Shown: positions 8,440 to 26,027 of the stretch, piece by piece
How positions within the stretch are numbered: position 1 is the first letter of the stretch
Layout: every line of letters begins with the position of its first letter
Source: Agapetus fuscipes
Lineage: Eukaryota; Arthropoda; Insecta; Trichoptera; Glossosomatidae
Direction of reading: 5' to 3'
Length of the DNA: 64,000 nt
NCBI GenBank assembly: GCA_951799405.1
Contig: OX637363.1
Location: forward strand, 4,898,001 to 4,962,000
The notes under the pieces: model-generated
The model's database searches: none
What the model was told of the DNA's origin: nothing
What the model saw: only the letters and a program-made list of their open reading frames with translations
Program-made: the position numbers and the translations under genes

Positions 8440-8650
8440 ATGGACATACACCCTGCAACTCTTGCCGTCCTTCTCTGAAACAGGGGTGACATTGGCAAAG
8501 TGAACCATTTTTACAGCATGGGTGGCATTTGGTTTTTATGTTGTAGGTTCACATGAGGCATGTGCAAGCGCGAACTTGTACGTGTCTGGTTGTAAGAATG
8601 CATGTAATGTGAATCTCCAATGTAACATATCTTTGAAACTTAGATTAGAT
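8440..8650 (+). repeat. RTE-A module with inverted 5' part
   Basis: 8440-8524 is the first part of the module in reverse orientation, ending CAGCATGGGTGG. From 8527 the downstream part runs forward from CATTTGGTTTTTATGTTG to TTAGATTAGATT. An inverted 5' segment joined to a sense 3' segment is the signature of twin-primed LINE integration. Confidence 0.75.
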
Positions 8651-8967
8651 TACAAAAAAAAATGAAAAAAGTATAGAGAATAATAATTTGTACTTATTAC
8701 AACTTTTAAATCAGAAATCTCAACCGTTCCGAGCTTCCATTCTTTGTCCCGTATAAAATCCTTTTCAATATAAAAGTAATAATAATACCAGATGTATAGG
8801 ATATAATGTATATTATATGCGTATATATATTATGTATAATATGACACTCAGGACACGTGTGAAGTAAAAAACCGATCTCATATAATCATCATAAAGGATA
8901 TACCTAGCGAAGCAGTGAAGAGAAACCAAAGGTTTGCAGTTGATTCAACTGCCAGAAAAATTAACTG

Positions 8968-9143
8968 CAGGGCTGGAAGTCTCATCATCACCACAGTAAT
9001 GCTTATCTACTGAATATCGTCAATATTTGTATGAAGACCTGTAAATCCATGATGGCCGCAAGTGAAAAGCTGATTAGTCTTCATACAAATACAACCGATA
9101 TTCGGTAGGTAAGAATTACCATGGTGATGAGACTTCCAGCCCA
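8968..9143. mobile_element. FB1 MITE, near complete
   Basis: Arms GGGCTGGAAGTCTCATCATC and GATGAGACTTCCAGCCC enclose GATGGCCGCAAGTG. TATTTGTATGAAGAC..GTCTTCATACAAATA pairs inside, making almost the whole element one hairpin. Confidence 0.85.
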
Positions 9144-9299: not shown

Positions 9300-9940
9300 T
9301 GTATTCCTTGACGCATAAGTTGGTTTGAGGCTAACCACCCAATACTGTAAAACATGGTTCACTTTGCCAATGCCTCCCCTTTTTTCAGGGAAGGTCGGCA
9401 AGAGTTGCTGGGCTTATGTTTATTTGAGATTGGGTTTTATATAATGTAGGCTCACATGCGGCATGTTTAAGCGCGAACTTAAATGTGCTTGCTTGTCGGA
9501 CTACCGACCGGCCATCGGCCCGATCGGATACGCGGACTTTGTGGCCAACAAATCCAACTTTGAGGCTTTCTCAAAAAAGTTTCAGTAACATCTCGAATTT
9601 AGGCTTTAAGTCACATGTGAAGACGCTCAGAATCACTTTGCATTTTTGTTTGTAAATTTAAAATCCTCGAGCCCCAAACCCTCACGACTATAACCTTTCA
9701 GTGATTTCTGAGCCTCCTTTGCTTTGTGCAAACACTTGGGAAAATGTAGCTTCTCGGGAGGGCCTTCTGCCACTCGTATCTCACATAACTTTTGCATGCG
9801 AGTCCTGTGACACATCCCCGGATGGGATGGATATACAGGGCGTGGGTCAGTGGAGGGGAGACTGACCCTGATAGAAGGTGTTGTCGGACTACGTTTAATA
9901 TTAATCTTAAATGTAATATATCTTTGCAACATAGTTTATA
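9300..9940 (+). repeat. RTE-A module split by an insertion
   Basis: The module runs 9300-9504 and resumes at 9893 (GTTTAATATTAATCTTAAATG) to about 9936. The break is filled by the 9505-9882 insert. A reverse fragment of the same family lies just upstream at 9216-9270. Confidence 0.75.
9505..9882. mobile_element. Unclassified 378-bp insertion, 10-bp duplication
   Basis: The exact 10-mer GTCGGACTAC occurs at 9495-9504 and 9883-9892 and brackets 378 bp with no match elsewhere in the window. The left end is GC-rich and partly self-complementary (CGACCGGCCATCGGCCCGAT). I see no terminal inverted repeat, poly(A) or pol III box. Open frames crossing it also cross LINE sequence and are not genes. 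Confidence 0.6.
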
Positions 9941-10190: not shown

Positions 10191-10381
10191 GCTTACCTAT
10201 GGAATATCCAGAGTCATAATAAAAGGAGAGCCTGTATGAAGAAGGTTATGACTCTGGAGGAAATGAAAGAAGTGTGTAAGGACAGAAAGAAATGGCGGTT
10301 AATATGTGATGTTGGCGGCTAGGGTTTTTTAAATTAAAGTTTGTTTTCTGTTAGTTTTTGATGTCCATACATAATATGTAT
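10191..10381 (+). pseudogene. RTE-A LINE, 5' half of split copy
   Basis: Encodes the decayed end of the LINE frame (IQSHNKRRACMKK-like, CKDRKKWRLICD) and UTR up to CATACATAATATGTAT, where the Gypsy element entered. Continues at 17527. Confidence 0.85.
10378..10381. repeat. Gypsy target-site duplication, left
   Basis: GTAT here matches GTAT at 17523-17526. Both sides join into one uninterrupted RTE-A LINE 3' end, confirming a clean single insertion. Confidence 0.9.
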
Positions 10382-10958
10382 TGTTACGTTTTTCCTGGGT
10401 TCTTTTAATTAAAACACAAGTTTAACACAAGTTAGCCATACAGTTTATTTACACAGACTTTCTTACAATAGATTTATTTTAACAGACTTATTCTAACAGA
10501 TTTATTTTAACACACTTATTTATTTCGCACAGATTACATTTATTTTACACCATATTGGTCGCCCTAGTAACTAGATATTCCACTGTGTGAGTGCTTCGAA
10601 AGACTCTATGATACTGGCCCGCTCTGCAGGCCATTCGCACCTTTATACTCTTCAGAGCAGTATGATCCAGAACTAAAGTCGCCAGACGGTTCCAGAGTAA
10701 TTATTACTTCTCGACGCTTCACGTACTACCTAGAGATACAACCAAAATCCTACCTACCAATGCAATACAGTATTCCTATAATTATAACAAATACCTACTT
10801 AGCCTAGAGAATTCTACACTTATACATAATTATCGATCTTACCTACCTATACCTATGAGGACTCTTATAACTATAACTACCCATACTTATTTCAATATTT
10901 ATATTTACATAACACTATAACTACCCATACTTATTTCAATATTTATATTTACATAACA
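10382..10958 (-). repeat. Gypsy 3' LTR
   Basis: The 577-bp LTR downstream in element sense. In window orientation it begins TGTTACGTTTTTCC and ends TTTACATAACA. About 45 bp (ACTATAACTACCCATACTTA onward) are duplicated in tandem near 10868-10958. Confidence 0.95.
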
Positions 10959-10972
10959 CTACCCCCCACCTA
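10959..10972 (-). other. Polypurine tract overlapping the stop codon
   Basis: In element sense AGGTGGGGGGTAG lies directly against the 3' LTR. It encodes the last three glycines and the TAG stop, so plus-strand priming sequence and coding end coincide. Confidence 0.85.
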
Positions 10973-13900
10973 GACTGTTTCGTCCCGGAACAGTCTTGAC
11001 TCTGTGTAGGTAGGGGCATGCTGATCCACGTCGACACCCTGTGGTCAGGAAGAAGTGGCAGTCCACGGATTTCTCCCCACTGGCTCTCGGCTGCGCTTGC
11101 TCGCAGCACACCATGACGCTGATGCCGACTCCCGAGAACACTGCTTCAATCATACTCCGGATTATCCGCCAGTCTCGATTAGCGCGGCCGCCACCCATCT
11201 TCGGTATTGCCAGACGCGCCTGCTGATCCTCCAACATGTAGTCACGCAGCTCAACAAGGCCGTCCCACAATGCCTTGTAGTCCTCTTCCAGGTTGCTGGA
11301 ATCCGGGACAACCAGGCAGTATGCTTGTTGACGCCCCTTCGGTAGTCTCAGAGCTCTTCCTTGCGGGCTGCTCGAGGGTTGCGGTTCTCCGAATTTGTAT
11401 CGGAAGACCCGTGCAATTCCTCTAGACATATCTAGATCTTCCGGTACACTGCATGCCAGTGTGTGGTCCCTAGTGACCTCAAATAAGTCCTTGTGGACTT
11501 CTGTGGTCACTCCATGGCGAAACTTCTGCCCTGCCTTCGCGTTCTCCCAAAACGTCTCAAAGGCTGGTGATCTTTCGGATGCGACGCACTGTCGTACTTT
11601 TTGGGCTGGTTGGTCATCATTATCGCCTAGGTATGGTGAGAGGCGATTGTAGTGCACGACCCTTGGTTTTCCGTTTGGTCTCTTTTTTATGCGGTAGACC
11701 ACATCGTTGATGCGCTCCAAGATCTCGTACGGCCCGTCCCAGGAACGCTGAAGTTTCGGACAGTATCCTTGGCGCCTCTTGGGGTCAAAAAGCCACACCC
11801 AGTCACCAGCTTTGTACCCCATGCTGTCAGCTCTGGTGTCATAGCGCTCCTTCATTTGATCGCTGGCTTCCCCGATGTTCATGCGGACCTGATCATGGAT
11901 GTCATCCAGCCTCCTGCGAAGGTCTGTCACATAGTCTTCTCCGGCTAGGTCTTCACCTGGTTTGCAGCCAAATTTGAGATCACAAGGAAGTCGCATTTCT
12001 CGCCCAAACAGTATGCTGCTGGGAGTCTTCTTCGTCGTTTCCTGAACAGCCGACCGGTAAGCCAATAAGAACAAAGGCAGATGTCGGTCCCAGTCCCGCT
12101 GATGGCTGGACACTACTTTGGCTAAGTACCTCCCCACGGTACGGTTCATCCTTTCCACCATTCCATCAGACTGTGGATGTAGCGCAGTGGTCCTGGTCTT
12201 GTAGATCCCTAGCCGCTCACACATTTGCTGGAAGATAGCAGCTTCAAAGTTCCTTCCCTGATCAGAATGTAATTCCAGGGGTACGCCAAACCTGCTGATA
12301 AATTCGGTAACTAGAACTTCAGTCACGGTTACGGCCTCTTGGTTAGGGATTGAGTAAGCTTCCACCCACTTGCTGAAGTAATCCATCACCACCATGATGT
12401 ACTTGTTACCCTTCTCAGTTGTAGGAAATGGGCCAGCTATGTCGATGGCAATTCTTTCAAAGGGGCTGCCAACATTGTACTGACGCATTGGTGCTCGCCT
12501 TTTCCTTTGCGGTCCATTGGCCGTTGCACAGGTTACACATTTTCGACACCAATCTTTGACGTCTTCGCTGCAGTTGATCCAGTAAAATCGCTCTTTCACT
12601 TTCTCCAGCGTCTTCTTAACGCCTAGATGTCCTCCAGAAGTTCCTCCATGCAGCAGTCCAAGGATTTCCGGTACTCGGCTCCTCGGAACGAGGGTTTGCT
12701 TTCTTCTAAGTGTGCCGTCTTCCTTCTCGATCTTTCGTTTCAGAAACCCTCCTTCTATCACTATGGATCCCCATTGAGCCCAATAAGCCTTGACAGTTGG
12801 TGATAAGGGGGCGAGTTTTTCCCAGGTTGGCCTTTCTCCTTCTCGCGCCCATTCCATCACATACTTCAAGTCCGGATCATTCAGTTGGTCTTGCGCCAAT
12901 TTTTCATCTTGCCAGTCCTCATCTTCGGTGGTCGTCCTTTGGACAATTGCTACCTTGTCCTCCATCTTGCTGCAATGTTTGCAGTCACTGGCGCATGGTC
13001 GTCTGGATAATGCATCCGCATTTCGATGAAGCGTGCCAGGTCTATGTTCGGAGTCATAATCATACTCCTGGAGCCTTTCAATCCATCTAGCCACTTGCCC
13101 TTCTGGGTTTTTGAATTTCAGAAGCCAAACCAGTGCAGCATGATCAGTCCGTAGTGTGAATTTTCTCCCGTACAAGTATTTGCGGAAGTGTTCCACTGAT
13201 TTTATCACGGCAAGAAGCTCTCGTCTGGTCACGCAATAATTTCGTTCTGGCTTGGAAAGCACTTTACTGAAGTAACCCAGAACAGTCTCATGCCCATCCT
13301 GTATTTGGGAAAGGACGCCTCCTATCCCCACATTACTAGCGTCGGTATCCAGGATGAACTTTCCATCTTTTCGTGGGTAGCTCAAGATGGGGGCACTTGT
13401 TAATCTTCCCTTAAGCTCTTCAAATGCTTGTGCGCAGGAATCACTCCAATGGAAGCGAGTGTTTTCTTCCGTAAGCTTGGTGAGCGGTTTTGCAATGTCC
13501 GCAAATCTTGGCACAAACCTCCTGTAATAAGTGCACAGCCCCAGGAAACTCCTAGTTTCATGTTTGTCCTTCAGCACGGGCCAGTCTCTTACTGCCTTGA
13601 TTTTGGCAGGGTCAACTTCAACTCCACGTTGAGAAACTATGTGTCCCAGGTAATTTACTTGTTTCTTGAACAGGTTACACTTTTTCGGGTTGAGCTTCAG
13701 TCCAGCGTCTTGTAGTCGCCCGAAAACTTGCTCCAGATTTCTCAACTGATGGTTGAAGTCCTTTCCCAGGATGATTATGTCATCCAAGTATACCAGGCAG
13801 GTTTCCCATGATAGTCCTCGCAGCACATTCTCCATCAGCCTTTCAAACGTGGCGGGGGCATTGCATAAGCCAAATGGCATCACGGTGAACTGCCAAAGTC

Positions 13901-16508
13901 CAGATCCAGTCGAGAATGCAGTTTTCTCCTTATCTTTGGCATCCAATTCAACTTGCCAGTAGCCACTTTTCAGGTCCAATGTGGAAAAAATGGTGCATCC
14001 TGCCAATGTGTCCAAGGTGTCGTCAATCCTTGGCAGAGGGTAACTATCCTTTTTCGTAACATCGTTGAGCAGTCTGTAGTCCACACAAAATCTCGTGGTA
14101 CCATCCTTCTTTTTCACCAGTACCACCGGGGATGTCCAAGGGCTACTTGATGGTTCTATGATGCCATCCTTGCTCATGTCTTTGATGATCTTGTCAGCTT
14201 CTTCCCGCTTTGCAAAGGGTAGTCTTCTTGGAGCCTGTTTTATTGGTCTCGCTTCTCCGGTGTCTATGCTATGTCGCACTACCTTGGTTCTTCCCAGACG
14301 GCCATTAGAGTCCTCGAAAATGTTCTGGTAGCGGCAGATCAAACTCCTCACTCTCCGTTTGTTTTCCTCGGTTAGACCTTGGGAAGCGTCGTGGACCAGG
14401 GCTTCCAATTGTGTTGACAATTTGTTTCCTTCGCATGACATGTTTGTCATCTGTTGCACAATGGAAGTTATCCTCTCACATCTGCCCAAAACAAAACCTT
14501 CATTCATTTTAACTGGGTAGCTGTTCACATTCATGATCTTGACAGGAATGGTCTCCTTTGCGCGAATCACTGTTCTTGCCACCATGACTCCTTTGTTAAC
14601 ATTGTCCATGTTCTCCGGTTCTATCATACAGATTTGGTCATTTGTACTACTGGAATCCAGGCGGGCACTCACTATCATCTCGGATCGCCCCTTCACTTCG
14701 GTATTCTTGGCTAGGATAACACGTGCAGCCAGTTCTTTCCGTCTTTGCAGGATGACTTCTTCATTTCCAATTTTAATGGACCCTTTCTTTAAATTTAAAC
14801 TGCACCCAAATCTGTCCAGTATGTCCATTCCCAATATAACGTCTTCTTCAATGTTGGCCACCAACGTCCGATGATCAAAAGTGGTGCTGCCAATTTGGAA
14901 GGTGGCAATCGTCTCCCCATACACCTGTGCTGACTCTCCCGTGGCGGTGTGCAGAGACCACTTTGTTGGTGCAATCTGCTTACCTCGTGCCACTATGTCG
15001 CGTCTCAGAATTGTCCTGGTTGCTCCCGTGTCCACCAGTAGTTCACGAGTTACTCCATCTATTATGCCATTGATAAAAATGCTGCTGGCTTTTCCTCTCA
15101 CGGTTGCGACAGTAGCAGCAGATTTCAGGGCCTCTCCAGCGTGGGTCAACGGTTGCCCCTTCCCATTAACCCTTTCTAGTTTTCCGCAGCCTGGTTTCTG
15201 AGGCTTGGGACACTTGGTGCTAAGGTGGCCCAGCTGTCCGCAGTTCCAGCAGCGTGGGTCTCGTCTTCGAGGTCTCAGACGTTCCAGCACTTTTTCAATT
15301 AGCTCCTCGGTTGTAGGTAGCTTGACCTCCTCTGCCTCGACTGCACGAACCCTGGCGTGGCCCCTGATGGACTGTTTGACAGCCTCAAACTCGAGAGCTT
15401 GGCTGAGCGCCTCGTTCAAAGCCTTGGGATGGGCCAGTTTTACGGCTTGTTGCGTCTCCCATTCCCGCAATCCATTTAGGAACTTGTCCACTGCCAAGCT
15501 CTCACAGATGTCGTCGGAGGCTGTCGGGTAAGCGTCTCGTACCAGGCGGGCGATGTCCATTTCAAACTCCTGGAGGCTCTCGTTGGGCTTCTGCACCCTT
15601 GTGTTCAGCTGCGACTTGTACAGCTGCTCCAGGCACTTGTGGCCATAGCGCATATCCAAGCGCTGCTTCAGCTGCCCAAAGTCACCACGGTTGTCCAGGG
15701 GTATGGCCTGCAGAACCCTGAGAGCGTCTCCTCGGAGCGACAGGCTGAGAACCGAAGCCTTCTTCTGCTGGCTCCAGGCTCCCATCATGGCAGCCGTTTC
15801 AAAGAGGGTCAAATACTCCTCCCATGACGTCTTCCCGTCGAAGGTCGGGAGGTTGTGCTTCGCGAGCGAAGGGTCATCATCCCCTCTAGTGACCCTGGTT
15901 GGAGTTGAGCATCCCTGGTCGGTCTCGTCGTGAAGGCCGTCTTTGGGGGATATTCTGGTGGACTCCATCTGGCACTTGTCAGCCAGCTCGGCACGCAGAC
16001 GGTCCTCCAGGCTTGATATACGAGTCTCCATTTCCCCCTTCAGGGCTGTCATCTTCTCTTCCATTTCTCCTTTCAGGGTTGTGAGATTTCGGGACACCTT
16101 TTCCTCCAGATTCCTGGCGTTGTCAGCCATTTCCACCTTCAGGTCGGTCACCACTTCCTTCAGGTTGGTGGTCATCTTCTCCTCCAGCCCAGTCATCTTC
16201 TCCTCCAGCCCGGTCAGGTCCTCCTTCAGGGTCTTGGCGTTGTCAGCCATCTCAGTCTTCAGTCCTGTCAGGTTACTGTTTAGCTCCTCCTTCATGGACT
16301 TTGTGATGCTGATATTTAGCTCGTCCAAGGCGCGGTCCCCTCCAGACGCCATGACAAAATATGCCGGGTCTTCGCCTGATTGTTCCAAGGCCTCTATGAG
16401 GCGTGCTTGTAAGGCTGCCTTTCCTCCTGAGGTCTCCAGGTCCCTCTCCAGAAGCTCATTTTTAAGCTCAGTGACTTTGAGGTCCTTGACGTTCACTTTA
16501 GTTGCCAT
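10959..16508 (-). CDS. Gag-Pol polyprotein with macrodomain and CCCH finger
   Basis: A single 1849-residue frame. Visible in order: SAP-like helix-loop-helix (7-42); heptad-rich coiled coil (about 65-180); Gag core (about 215-380); CCHC knuckle (C420 to C433); aspartic protease (DTGA, 493-496); reverse transcriptase with YLDD (907-910); RNase H (D1054, E1097, D1122, D1165); integrase HHCC (H1287, H1294, C1321, C1324) and DDE (D1356, D1416, E1452); GPY/F-type domain ending about 1628. The last 221 residues are unusual: 1674-1803 resemble the TARG1/OARD1 macrodomain fold (DLDMSRGIA, IPKMGGG), and 1817-1835 form a C-x7-C-x5-C-x3-H finger. By eye, the TARG1 catalytic Lys and Asp positions are Pro1735 and Ala1776, so ADP-ribose binding is more likely than hydrolysis. 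Gag and Pol share one frame. The start ATG has an A-rich context (AAAATGG), and the stop touches the LTR. All enzymatic motifs I checked are intact. Confidence 0.95.
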   Translation of the reverse strand: MATKVNVKDLKVTELKNELLERDLETSGGKAALQARLIEALEQSGEDPAYFVMASGGDRALDELNISITKSMKEELNSNLTGLKTEMADNAKTLKEDLTGLEEKMTGLEEKMTTNLKEVVTDLKVEMADNARNLEEKVSRNLTTLKGEMEEKMTALKGEMETRISSLEDRLRAELADKCQMESTRISPKDGLHDETDQGCSTPTRVTRGDDDPSLAKHNLPTFDGKTSWEEYLTLFETAAMMGAWSQQKKASVLSLSLRGDALRVLQAIPLDNRGDFGQLKQRLDMRYGHKCLEQLYKSQLNTRVQKPNESLQEFEMDIARLVRDAYPTASDDICESLAVDKFLNGLREWETQQAVKLAHPKALNEALSQALEFEAVKQSIRGHARVRAVEAEEVKLPTTEELIEKVLERLRPRRRDPRCWNCGQLGHLSTKCPKPQKPGCGKLERVNGKGQPLTHAGEALKSAATVATVRGKASSIFINGIIDGVTRELLVDTGATRTILRRDIVARGKQIAPTKWSLHTATGESAQVYGETIATFQIGSTTFDHRTLVANIEEDVILGMDILDRFGCSLNLKKGSIKIGNEEVILQRRKELAARVILAKNTEVKGRSEMIVSARLDSSSTNDQICMIEPENMDNVNKGVMVARTVIRAKETIPVKIMNVNSYPVKMNEGFVLGRCERITSIVQQMTNMSCEGNKLSTQLEALVHDASQGLTEENKRRVRSLICRYQNIFEDSNGRLGRTKVVRHSIDTGEARPIKQAPRRLPFAKREEADKIIKDMSKDGIIEPSSSPWTSPVVLVKKKDGTTRFCVDYRLLNDVTKKDSYPLPRIDDTLDTLAGCTIFSTLDLKSGYWQVELDAKDKEKTAFSTGSGLWQFTVMPFGLCNAPATFERLMENVLRGLSWETCLVYLDDIIILGKDFNHQLRNLEQVFGRLQDAGLKLNPKKCNLFKKQVNYLGHIVSQRGVEVDPAKIKAVRDWPVLKDKHETRSFLGLCTYYRRFVPRFADIAKPLTKLTEENTRFHWSDSCAQAFEELKGRLTSAPILSYPRKDGKFILDTDASNVGIGGVLSQIQDGHETVLGYFSKVLSKPERNYCVTRRELLAVIKSVEHFRKYLYGRKFTLRTDHAALVWLLKFKNPEGQVARWIERLQEYDYDSEHRPGTLHRNADALSRRPCASDCKHCSKMEDKVAIVQRTTTEDEDWQDEKLAQDQLNDPDLKYVMEWAREGERPTWEKLAPLSPTVKAYWAQWGSIVIEGGFLKRKIEKEDGTLRRKQTLVPRSRVPEILGLLHGGTSGGHLGVKKTLEKVKERFYWINCSEDVKDWCRKCVTCATANGPQRKRRAPMRQYNVGSPFERIAIDIAGPFPTTEKGNKYIMVVMDYFSKWVEAYSIPNQEAVTVTEVLVTEFISRFGVPLELHSDQGRNFEAAIFQQMCERLGIYKTRTTALHPQSDGMVERMNRTVGRYLAKVVSSHQRDWDRHLPLFLLAYRSAVQETTKKTPSSILFGREMRLPCDLKFGCKPGEDLAGEDYVTDLRRRLDDIHDQVRMNIGEASDQMKERYDTRADSMGYKAGDWVWLFDPKRRQGYCPKLQRSWDGPYEILERINDVVYRIKKRPNGKPRVVHYNRLSPYLGDNDDQPAQKVRQCVASERSPAFETFWENAKAGQKFRHGVTTEVHKDLFEVTRDHTLACSVPEDLDMSRGIARVFRYKFGEPQPSSSPQGRALRLPKGRQQAYCLVVPDSSNLEEDYKALWDGLVELRDYMLEDQQARLAIPKMGGGRANRDWRIIRSMIEAVFSGVGISVMVCCEQAQPRASGEKSVDCHFFLTTGCRRGSACPYLHRVKTVPGRNSLGGG
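11100..11489 (-). other. Macrodomain region of Gag-Pol (residues 1674-1803)
   Basis: The pattern KDLFEV..DHTLACSVPEDLDM, then GIARVFRYKFG, then LAIPKMGGGRANRDW and MIEAVF follows the TARG1/OARD1 order of ADP-ribose-binding loops. It lies downstream of the integrase C-terminal domain and in frame, so it would be made as part of the polyprotein. Confidence 0.8.
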
Positions 16509-16927: not shown

Positions 16928-16944
16928 CTTCACACCGGACACCA
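16928..16944 (-). other. Gypsy primer-binding site
   Basis: TGGTGTCCGGTGTGAAG starts one base inside the 5' LTR, with the expected TGG matching a tRNA CCA end. I could not assign the tRNA species. Confidence 0.75.
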
Positions 16945-16945
16945 C

Positions 16946-17522
16946 TGTTACGTTTTTCCTGGGTTCTTTTAATTAAAACACAAGTTTAACACAAGTTAGC
17001 CATACAGTTTATTTACACAGACTTTCTTACAATAGATTTATTTTAACAGACTTATTCTAACAGATTTATTTTAACACACTTATTTATTTCGCACAGATTA
17101 CATTTATTTTACACCATATTGGTCGCCCTAGTAACTAGATATTCCACTGTGTGAGTGCTTCGAAAGACTCTATGATACTGGCCCGCTCTGCAGGCCATTC
17201 GCACCTTTATACTCTTCAGAGCAGTATGATCCAGAACTAAAGTCGCCAGACGGTTCCAGAGTAATTATTACTTCTCGACGCTTCACGTACTACCTAGAGA
17301 TACAACCAAAATCCTACCTACCAATGCAATACAGTATTCCTATAATTATAACAAATACCTACTTAGCCTAGAGAATTCTACACTTATACATAATTATCGA
17401 TCTTACCTACCTATACCTATGAGGACTCTTATAACTATAACTACCCATACTTATTTCAATATTTATATTTACATAACACTATAACTACCCATACTTATTT
17501 CAATATTTATATTTACATAACA
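16946..17522 (-). repeat. Gypsy 5' LTR
   Basis: Same length as the other LTR and no difference seen on direct reading. It would hold the element's promoter. The outer flank is GTAT (17523-17526). Confidence 0.95.
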
Positions 17523-17526
17523 GTAT

Positions 17527-17822
17527 TATAATTTAGTGATTTTAAAAATGTAATTTGTCATGTATGTTCCTTGACTTATAGGTTGGTATGCGGCTGACCA
17601 CCCATACTGTAAAAAAATGGTTCACTTTGCCAATGTCACCCCAGTCTCAGGGAAGGACGGCAAGAGTTGCAGGGCTTATGTTCATTTGAGATGGGTTCTT
17701 ATAATGTAGGTCCACATGCGGCATGTGTCAGCGCGAAATTATACATGTCTGCTTGTGGGAATGCATTTGATATAAATTTTAAATGGTATATATCCTTGCA
17801 GCTTAGATTAGATTAGATTAGA
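17527..17822 (+). repeat. RTE-A module, 3' half of split copy
   Basis: Continues the copy cut at 10381 (TATAATTTAGTGATTTTAAA), followed by a complete module and TTAGA tail. Confidence 0.9.
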
Positions 17823-23146: not shown

Positions 23147-24188
23147 ATAATACCAAAGTTCAAACTTACTAACTTATTTATATTAGAGCATAGTCGAAGC
23201 CGTATTTTTAAACGCCAAAAAATACATAATAAGTCAATAATAATAAGTAAAAATACAAGAAAACAAACCGTCAGTACAAACTACAGAAAGCCTTGAATAA
23301 AATTTATGAATTATAAAAAAAAAAATCAATAAAAATAAACTTATGCGCTTTACAATATTTGTAACCTTAAAGTATTTTTCTAATCCGAAGTATTGAAGAA
23401 AAAATTGTAATTTTGTAACACAAATAATAAGCCTTAAAAATCATGTTGTAAAAGTAATGCTCAAAAAATTAAATTATTAAGTATTTAAAACCAAAGATTT
23501 AAGTCCATGACTCAAAAAAAAAACACATGAAATAAACCTCAAAAATTCCAAAATAATATAATTTTTGTAGATCTTTCTCGTAGATTTAAAAAATAGTGTT
23601 AACCCCCCGTGTGCCAGTGAAACAAGTCATTTTTTAAATTAACTTTTGTATGCTTTTAATCAAAATATTCCACGAAGTGATTTTTTTAAATTAATTTATT
23701 AAAAAAAGGTTCCAATGAAATCGAGTACAAAAAAATCTGCTTATTAATAATTAAAAATAATGCTAATTCAATGTTTGTGAAGTGAAATAAATAATATAAT
23801 TAAAAAAAACACAAAATATAATAATATATTTTCGTATAAACTTTTGAATGTATGTTAACAAAGTGTGTTCAAATTTTTTTGATCATTTTTACATTTGCCA
23901 TTTTTTTGGCAACAATTGATTGTCGAGATCTATCACCAAAAGCCATACATTTTGGGATCTATTGTTCACCGTATTCGATCTAGAAAAAGACATCCATCAA
24001 CATATTCATTCCGTAAATAAAGTGTAATTTGGATTCAATCATTGTTCGAATGACTGCTTTACCAAAAGGTTGAAAGATTAAAGTTTCGGCAACCTGAAGC
24101 AAATGCTCGTTTACTCAACCAGTTTTGAAGCAAGCTCTACCTTTTTTGCTTTGCTGAAGGGATAGTTTCTATCAAGCTTTGGGTGCAG
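23147..24188. other. AT-rich interval upstream of the TET exon
   Basis: Very AT-rich, several AATAAA and poly(A) runs, no recognised repeat. It could be 3' UTR of the candidate exon or intron/5' flank of TET. A plausible acceptor AG sits at 24187-24188. Confidence 0.4.
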
Positions 24189-25261
24189 AAAAGCGCAAGT
24201 TGTTTGCAATTGATGGTAAATTGGCAGTCAGGTCTGAGAATGGAGTTTTGTGGTTAATAGGAGGGATGAGCGAAGCTCTGGGTCCTGGAGGAGGCGGGGG
24301 TGGGGGCTTCACAGGATCTGAACACCTCCCACCCTTCAGCTCCTTCCAAGAAGACGGCGAACCGAGACTAGTCCAAGACCCAAGACTGCTAGACATATCC
24401 TGGGATTACTACGGAGATCCCAACCGCCTGGTCGAAGCTAGAACAGAAAACGGAATCGCGATCTTGGGTCAACCTCAATACAGACCTTGGGAACCTGCAG
24501 GGAAAGATGCAGCTCTCAGAGGAGGATTCGGAGACGCTAAGTTGCCTTCATTTCAAAGCCAATTCCAAGTATTTCCCGAGCCAGGAGAACCTTCAGCCGT
24601 TGGTGTCAGTTCTCCAGGTCCTGCGCCTCCTACTGCCACTTCTCTAACTCCTCTAGCTCCAGCCGCTTTCCACACGTTGACAGCTGTGAATCCACGAGCT
24701 TATTCCTTGCCTCTAACACCACAGTACATAGATGAACGACATTTGTTGTATCAACCAAACCTAGCAATCAATTTCCAACCGCAAAACGGGATTCTGCACC
24801 AGAATGGAACTCTCATCCAAAACATTCCAAACCAGACTGTTGTGCACGTCCTGAAAAACGAACCGCCAGCTTTTGAGATGAAGATCGGCAACACGACCAT
24901 CCCGATCTCTCAAGACACGAAATTCCTGCCGAACGGACTGCATCATTCCAATTTCCACAATCCAATCACAACTCTATTAGACAGCAATAGTTATGAAAAG
25001 AACAAGAACAACGGGTTCCAGAATGGAAGTTCTCCAACTAGGAGCGACTTTAGAAAGAAGGAGAGGAGAAAAATCAGAGCTAACAGTTTGGAGTCGAACG
25101 GGGAGTCTGATGGATCTGGGATGGAGGTTGGCTCTGAGAGCAGTGGCCAAGTGGCTGCAGTGTCTTCTACTGCAGGTGCTGGGTTCAAGTCCCCGCTGCA
25201 CGCGGGACCAGGCCAACCTAGAGACGCTCCGGATTTGGATGACATCTCAAGTGAAAAACAG
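24189..25261 (+). CDS. Tet: TET dioxygenase, N-terminal exon (partial gene)
   Basis: A long + frame with clear coding bias. It ends at the donor CAG|GTAAAT after codon ...SSEKQ, phase 0, matching the phase-0 CXXC exon 2.7 kb downstream, which is the basis for assigning it to TET. The encoded stretch has a Gly run (about 24290-24305), Pro/Ser/Ala-rich low-complexity sequence, a basic cluster RKKERRKIR (about 25051-25077) that may act as a nuclear localisation signal, and Ser/Gly/acidic sequence before the junction. No catalytic domain is expected here in the family. The 5' boundary is uncertain. The frame is open from 24158 but has no upstream ATG; the first ATG is 24266 (MSEALGP), giving 332 codons to the donor. 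Acceptor-like AGs at 24187-24188 and 24259-24260 would instead make it internal. TET proteins oxidise 5-methylcytosine (or N6-methyladenine/RNA in some insects) in the nucleus. Confidence 0.75.
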
Positions 25262-26027
25262 GTAAATTTAAATAACATTTTACAGTACCTTTGTTGCTAC
25301 CTTTGTCTCTCATCTATTCAATTATTGAATCCTAGAGTTTTCCTTATAGTCTTTATATGATCCTCCAGATATATAAATTTGAATAGTTTCATAATTTTCC
25401 ATCTCCAGAACTCTACCTGTTGAATTCTTCCATTTGTACGAAAATTCTTCATCCAATAATTTGTTTACACATATTTTATTTTATTTTTGTTGAATAATTT
25501 ATTTTAATTACTTTTAAATTGCTCCCTACAGTTGTTTTTACAATCAATTCTTTATATTTGAAACTGTTTTTCGCAAATATAAGCGAGTTGGAACAAAAAA
25601 CCGCTCCTTGTTATCTCAAATATAACGAGCTCCAGGCGTATCAATTTGCGAAGTCCAGAATCTGAAATAAATTGATTTGATTGCAAAAAAAAAACATTTT
25701 AAAAGGTTCATTTGTTCGGTTTTGATTATAATTATCAATGTTTCGAATATAAAAGGTTAAAAGTTAAGTAAAGTAAAAAAACCAGGGTGGAAATTTCTTG
25801 AGCTGTCACTGAGCGATTTTCGCGAGGAAGCGGGATGGATGCATTGAATGTACTAGCAAGTGCGAGGGAGACAGATAACAAAACGGTAAACTTTCATTAA
25901 AGGGTTTATTGCTTGTGTGCGTAATGGTTTTCAAGAAAAGGTGAACAATCTATTGACATATTGTGTCAAGAGTGTTTGCGAAAAATGGATATGTATTTGT
26001 GAAAACTCTATCTCGATTAATATTACA

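Follow-up and report, generated by a model that had tools for sequence, protein, structure and literature searches.

A TARG1-like macrodomain and a CCCH finger behind the integrase of an Agapetus fuscipes Gypsy element

Why would a retrotransposon carry a domain resembling the hydrolase TARG1 behind its integrase, and what could this domain do there once its catalytic residues are gone? The question is raised by a Gypsy element on the minus strand of a 64,000-nucleotide stretch of Agapetus fuscipes DNA (the window). To answer it, we searched the 618 Mb genome (148 contigs), compared the element with proteins of other species, and examined the history of the domain and the selection acting on it.

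The element and its C-terminal extension

The element has the features of a Ty3/Gypsy LTR retrotransposon, namely LTRs, a short target duplication, the domain order protease, reverse transcriptase, RNase H, and integrase, and no envelope (Table 1). Because the LTRs are identical, with GTAT duplications on either side, the insertion is young. The stop codon (10959-10961) abuts the LTR, and the final glycines are encoded by the purine run. Since the reading frame extends up to this run and the LTR, there is no space for a downstream env gene. Chromoviruses are Ty3/Gypsy elements with a chromodomain, a chromatin-type reader, at the integrase C terminus. The four scanned pieces of the window protein gave no chromodomain among their Pfam matches, taken up to E 1, and the element thus does not classify as a chromovirus. 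Related repeats lie on both sides of the element (window positions 8530-8652, 9385-9500, and 17612-17815), and it seems to sit within a dispersed repeat. The window also contains an inverted repeat at 8985-9130, with 54-nt arms that are 83% complementary, and, on the plus strand, a 393-aa open reading frame (24179-25360) with no Pfam match at E 0.1.

Table 1. Features of the Gypsy element, in window positions; amino acids (aa) are numbered along the window protein.
Feature	Position	Strand	Basis or detail
Target-site duplication GTAT, left copy	10378..10381	.	sequence reading
3' LTR	10382..10958	-	577 nt, 100% identity to the other LTR
Intact ORF, 1849 aa, gag and pol fused in the window copy	10959..16508	-	
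GGGGGG purine run, putative polypurine tract, doubling as last codons	10962..10967	-	sequence reading
C-terminal extension, 221 aa, aa 1629-1849	10962..11624	-	
CCCH zinc finger, aa 1817-1835	11004..11060	-	Pfam zf-CCCH over cut-off
TARG1/OARD1-type macrodomain, aa 1666-1803	11100..11513	-	sequence and fold matches
Ala1776, place of TARG1 catalytic Asp125	11181..11183	-	TARG1 alignment
Pro1735, place of TARG1 catalytic Lys84	11304..11306	-	TARG1 alignment
Integrase core and C-terminal domain, aa 1349-1626	11631..12464	-	Pfam rve, p58_C, SH3_Tf2-1
RNase H, aa 1021-1149	13062..13448	-	Pfam RT_RNaseH_2 E 1.1e-34, RT_RNaseH E 1.5e-33
Reverse transcriptase, aa 798-958	13635..14117	-	Pfam RVT_1 E 2.7e-37
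Aspartic protease, aa 479-566	14811..15074	-	Pfam gag-asp_proteas E 2.1e-10
CCHC zinc knuckle, aa 419-435; copy-specific gag-pol fusion shortly after	15204..15254	-	
Gag capsid region, aa 254-349	15462..15749	-	Pfam Retrotrans_gag E 3.4e-5
SAP domain, Gag N terminus, aa 7-42	16383..16490	-	Pfam E 3.8e-8
Putative primer binding site, begins TGG, 1 base off the LTR	16928..16944	-	sequence reading
5' LTR	16946..17522	-	577 nt, identical to the 3' LTR
Target-site duplication GTAT, right copy	17523..17526	.	sequence reading

The initial annotation described Gag and Pol as one open reading frame. This is true of the window copy and a few more, but is not a trait of the family. When the genome was searched with the extension, the most frequent open frame was 1422 aa long, and frames of at least 1834 aa occurred in 5 of 150 rows. 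We aligned the gag-pol junction of six family B copies and 14 copies of the window's own family, A (five of 1834-1861 aa, one of 1663, one of 1535, and seven of the 1422 type). In all seven fetched copies of the 1422 type, gag stops shortly past the CCHC knuckle, and pol lies in a different frame. A small length difference at the junction fuses the two frames in the window copy and a few others.

Beyond the integrase, where the last Pfam integrase match ends at about aa 1626, the annotation had proposed 221 in-frame residues with the TARG1 motifs in order, and both claims were borne out. A phmmer search aligned extension residues 41-172 with human OARD1/TARG1 (E 8e-11), with the motifs collinear. 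The fold check it had suggested gave a concordant result, with TARG1 as the best structural match, and nearest solved structure, to an AlphaFold model of the extension (mean pLDDT 81; ten-residue blocks within the macrodomain ranged from 68 to 96, about half of them at 93 or above). The segment thus combines a macrodomain fold with sequence homology to TARG1. The Pfam Macro profile gave no match to the window protein up to E 1; in alignment A3, it matched 27 of 40 members with an E of 0.01 or below, and some of these are likely cellular homologues. The worry that profile searches would find no macrodomain did not materialize, since sequence and fold searches both found one, even with Pfam Macro negative on the window protein. 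Scans of IMG/VR with the extension and with a two-sequence alignment as queries confirmed nothing.

The finger has the anticipated spacing, C-x7-C-x5-C-x3-H, and scores 21.6 bits against PF00642, over the curated cut-off of 20.5. The catalytic residues were correctly described as replaced: in the TARG1 alignment, Lys84 corresponds to Pro1735 and Asp125 to Ala1776. The window protein therefore lacks the pair that characterizes a TARG1 hydrolase; both residues are present in P0001, a protein described below, and in most relatives. All of D20, G43, I44, and G123 of the pocket are retained. We take D20, S35, and T83 to be ADP-ribose pocket residues of TARG1, and because the window has Pro for Ser35 and Val for Thr83, ADP-ribose binding may be weakened.

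Copies in the genome and relatives in other species

The annotation allowed that the extension might be absent from other copies of the family. Searching with the extension yielded 1412 candidates in a first look, and the 150 that were scored were all protein-identical and stop-free in this segment; such a query finds extension-bearing copies only, and copies without the extension are invisible to it. An integrase query, which is blind to the extension, yielded 2300 candidates, and all 122 that were scored were 100% identical. Among these, 92 lay in a frame whose length, exactly 1422 aa, is one seen in extension-bearing copies. The remaining matches lay in frames of 629 to 1861 aa, where length alone does not decide whether the extension is present. 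From the other direction, 42 of the 48 loci fetched via the extension also had the integrase, and in 40 the two adjoined in one frame. Copies of the family do have the extension.

Extension DNA was identical or one base off in the first eight fetched copies (L001-L008). In seven of these, the best match to the window's LTR was 86-97% identical; in L001, it was 100% identical over only 124 nt. In these copies, the LTRs diverge or recombine at a much higher rate than the coding DNA.

Further families were found in the same genome. Family B, to which the rows of at least 155 bits (49 of 150 rows) belong, was represented by 20 fetched loci (L009-L028), in which the extension is 48-49% identical to that of family A; the printed copies have Arg in the place of Lys and Ala in that of Asp. 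A related family, L062, is 72% identical to the window in the extension and 88% in the integrase. In one rearranged family A copy (L098, C21:1443353), gag is joined to the extension via a coiled-coil-like stretch, the pol enzymes are absent, and the frame is open over 561 aa. The host's own TARG1 exons, which have both Lys and Asp, are located at other places in the genome. The assembly contains three occurrences of the host TARG1 exon, L035 (C31:266686), L034 (C31:352969), and L033 (C52:33039), two of them on the same contig as the window.

A genome search with Pfam Macro gave eight rows and led, through L032, to nine rows of a separate Gypsy lineage, C, with open frames of up to 1266 aa (loci L078, G000:C21:11274390; L081, C12:10913154; and L077, C1:26557373). 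In this lineage, the macrodomain sits between RNase H and integrase and matches the TARG1 profile (hhalign 99.9%). Lys and Asp are retained in the eight of nine loci that were aligned, and the dN/dS of the domain is well below 1, with dS near saturation. A sister family, D (nine rows, six of them fetched as L092-L097), has a degenerate macrodomain at the same place in pol, with 86.9% against TARG1 and 96.6% against C, compared with at most 1.4% for 20 shuffles. The window lineage and lineage C are 46% identical in reverse transcriptase and 32% in integrase. A common origin of the post-integrase and lineage C macrodomains was not rejected (AU p 0.161); the data thus establish two positions in two pol lineages, and two captures from the host are unproven.

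Outside Agapetus fuscipes, the first two protein searches returned one protein each, P0001 and P0002. P0001 (EPUL_004988) is an integrase-macrodomain-CCCH protein deposited under a fungus, the powdery mildew Erysiphe pulchra. In the integrase, it shares 70% identity with the window element, and contamination or horizontal transfer from an insect seems likely. An alignment-based search recovered 61 proteins, cellular homologues among them. These included matches in the beetles Aromia, Molorchus, Gonioctena, Brassicogethes, Leptinotarsa, Pyrocoelia, Acanthoscelides, Callosobruchus, and Aquatica, in the leafhopper Macrosteles, in the cockroach Blattella, and in the aphid Sipha, as well as matches on many other contigs. 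The Blattella and Sipha matches look like cellular TARG1. Proteins from several beetles and a leafhopper, among others, have the same architecture as the window element, many with the integrase C terminus and some with the CCCH finger in one protein. The exact finger spacing recurs in 18 of the 24 post-integrase proteins that have at least 35 residues past the macrodomain, a count that includes several closely similar copies from a single species. Two relatives, P0021 and P0030, have no finger at their end, and the catalytic pair is present in both. Proteins named OARD1-like, macro-domain, or methyltransferase (P0027, P0029, P0047, and others) contain pieces resembling the element's extension. 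Such names call for caution, as several insect OARD1-like or macro-domain gene models look like pieces of retroelements.

Capture, loss of the catalytic pair, and selection

We built a tree of the macrodomain from 47 rows, after dropping 23 of 69 as short or near-duplicate and adding L062. The 27 post-integrase rows form one branch (support 97/98), and the window family A, L062, family B, and P0004 form one sub-branch (100/99). Both catalytic residues are missing in all four rows of this sub-branch. Of the 23 post-integrase rows outside it, all have the Lys and 21 have the Asp, which P0009 and P0016 lack. Of the rows left out of the tree, P0002, a member of the window family, is without the pair; P0058 and P0059, both fragments, deviate at a single catalytic position.

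The integrase-macrodomain unit is common to insect elements that form a well-supported branch, and its origin is most simply explained by one old capture of a TARG1-like gene from a cell. The pair is present in most of that branch and is missing as a pair in the window sub-branch alone, so that one later loss is likewise simplest. The simplest account is therefore a single capture of a catalytically competent TARG1, followed by a single loss of the Lys-Asp pair. The initial proposal, that this retrotransposon captured a host macrodomain, stands in part: a cellular TARG1-type domain and a CCCH finger do lie at the end of a Gypsy pol, with the pair lost, but the capturer was not the window element, as the domain is common to a well-supported insect-element branch in which most rows have the catalytic residues. 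Descent from the host genome's own TARG1 gene was neither established nor rejected (p 0.457 for the post-integrase branch and 0.143 for lineage C).

The macrodomain stayed open and under protein-level constraint after the pair was lost. Between the window family A and L062, it has a dN of 0.17, a dS of 0.97, and an omega of 0.18 (bootstrap 0.10-0.29; 300 of 300 below 1); omega for the integrase of the same pair is 0.04. In five closer pairs of family B, the macrodomain values range from 0 to 0.15. For B against L059 and L071, they are 0.06 and 0. Between families A and B, synonymous sites are saturated or nearly so, and 52% of macrodomain residues are retained. Constraint was not seen in two very close comparisons within families, the window against L075 (omega about 0.9, with very few changes) and L059 against L072 (omega 0.46; below 1 in 224 of 299 bootstraps). 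Taken by itself, the finger segment is too short for a constraint signal in four of five pairs and is informative only for A versus B. None of the compared rows has the Lys-Asp pair, so what is constrained is a non-catalytic domain.

Possible functions and known systems

With its fold conserved and both catalytic residues lost, the window macrodomain probably recognizes ADP-ribose or RNA rather than cutting. The best explanation of the observations as a whole, which we hold with moderate confidence, is that it is a pseudo-hydrolase that may still bind ADP-ribose and help the element from the integrase end of pol. The purposes put forward in the initial annotation, action against PARP-linked defense and targeting of ADP-ribosylated chromatin, stay conjectural; what speaks for a binding role is protein-level constraint on the non-catalytic form, together with the retention of pocket residues. 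In the rows without the pair, the TARG1 pocket glycines G43 and G123 persist in four of four and D20 in three of four, with Glu in place of Asp20 in L062; G43E and G123E are described as TARG1 pocket mutants in the available part of PMC5928194. The putative ligand would be mono-ADP-ribosyl groups or the ends of poly(ADP-ribose), and the CCCH finger and macrodomain surface may contact RNA or DNA. Whether it remains beside the integrase or is cleaved off, the macrodomain would keep the complex that replicates or integrates the element at host proteins or nucleic acid carrying ADP-ribose. Relatives with an intact Lys-Asp pair would instead erase the ADP-ribose mark. Tethering to chromatin or repair sites is a possible purpose, which we put forward tentatively; protection of the element's nucleic acid is another that may apply. 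A fuller scenario of ADP-ribose targeting or evasion is unlikely: the captured TARG1 would have served first as an eraser within pol and then, in the window branch, as a reader behind the integrase, steering integration to ADP-ribosylated chromatin. Such steering, for example to repair sites, would resemble that of chromoviruses by their chromodomain. Beside this scenario may be set the TARG1-like domain elsewhere in pol in lineage C and the same decay of the catalytic motif in D.

Could the domain instead counter a host defense? The ancestral form would have removed ADP-ribose that host ADP-ribosyltransferases placed on element RNA, cDNA ends, or proteins, and the window branch would mask or soak up such marks. 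The lineage C domain, with its catalytic pair and constraint at another position in pol, fits this possibility. ZAP, a CCCH-finger protein, belongs to the PARP family. Retrotransposition is restricted by ZAP, according to the available part of PMC4441479, and the available part of PMC7050489 describes TARG1 as stripping ADP-ribose from acidic residues of proteins and from nucleic-acid ends, along with a review suggestion that ADP-ribosylation of RNA may serve as a mark on transcripts of transposons or viruses. However, the pair is gone in the window branch, and we regard counter-defense as somewhat doubtful. It is rather improbable that macrodomain and finger now serve only RNA or cDNA binding, in packaging or in integrase-DNA contact, with ADP-ribose irrelevant. 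CCCH fingers typically bind RNA, and the loss of the pair in the window branch also suits this idea. As described in part of PMC5928194, TARG1 binds RNA and PAR competitively, and RNA not, or not only, via the pocket, so that constraint need not mean ADP-ribose. The persistence of both pocket glycines in every non-catalytic row points the other way, as do the finger-less relatives P0021 and P0030, which retain the pair.

That the extension merely hitch-hikes without a role is very unlikely: young copies would be open whatever their function, but an omega of 0.18 between diverged families, the sharing of about half of the residues by A and B despite saturated synonymous sites, and the retention of fold and finger across insect orders all oppose it. 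Chance resemblance or an assembly artefact is hardly credible. The lack of a Pfam Macro match would agree with it, but the sequence and fold matches, the presence at 150 or more genomic places, and the occurrence in independent species do not.

Retroelements with captured macrodomains have a precedent in fish, where macro-domain ORFs are reported from epsilon-like endogenous retroviruses of teleosts (Basta et al. 2009, as cited in the available part of PMC4977317). By that description, the teleost macrodomains are additional ORFs, which sets them apart from the insect Ty3/Gypsy form, in frame with the integrase. Extra domains are likewise carried by insect retrotransposons with virus-derived RNA helicases (PMC5563155), by crocodilian retroviruses with KIT-ligand or nectin3 (PMC4299795), and by elements in a review of retroelement accessory domains (PMC6338049), but in the available portions of these sources the domains are other than macrodomains. 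The available text of PMC5563155 contains neither "macro domain" nor "macrodomain", and "ADP-ribos" is absent from the available texts of all three. In the open-licence literature, outside which most subscription papers lie, our searches turned up no description of a macrodomain fused to the integrase of insect Gypsy elements and no paper on ADP-ribosylation as an interface between host insects and LTR retroelements. Captured host domains and fish-retrovirus macro-domain ORFs were thus already known, and the integrase-fused insect Gypsy form, of which no report was found, appears new.

The findings suggest that ADP-ribosylation is important for insect LTR retroelements in the course of their life cycle. 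They provide, within one fused domain, a natural gradation between an intact and a lost catalytic pair, in which reader and eraser roles are separable, and two macrodomain insertion sites in pol within one genome. Like chromoviruses, the window element has a reader-type domain after the integrase, but this is a macrodomain with a CCCH finger in place of a chromodomain. Retroviral dUTPase is placed between RNase H and integrase; the lineage C macrodomain occupies the same position in pol, with a different fold and from a different host gene. The closest known system, by both sequence and structure, is TARG1/OARD1 (C6orf130, of the ALC1-like macrodomain class), which shares with the window domain its fold, motif order, and pocket glycines. 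The window family differs from it in having Pro and Ala at the two catalytic places and in lying within a retroelement pol, followed by a CCCH finger.
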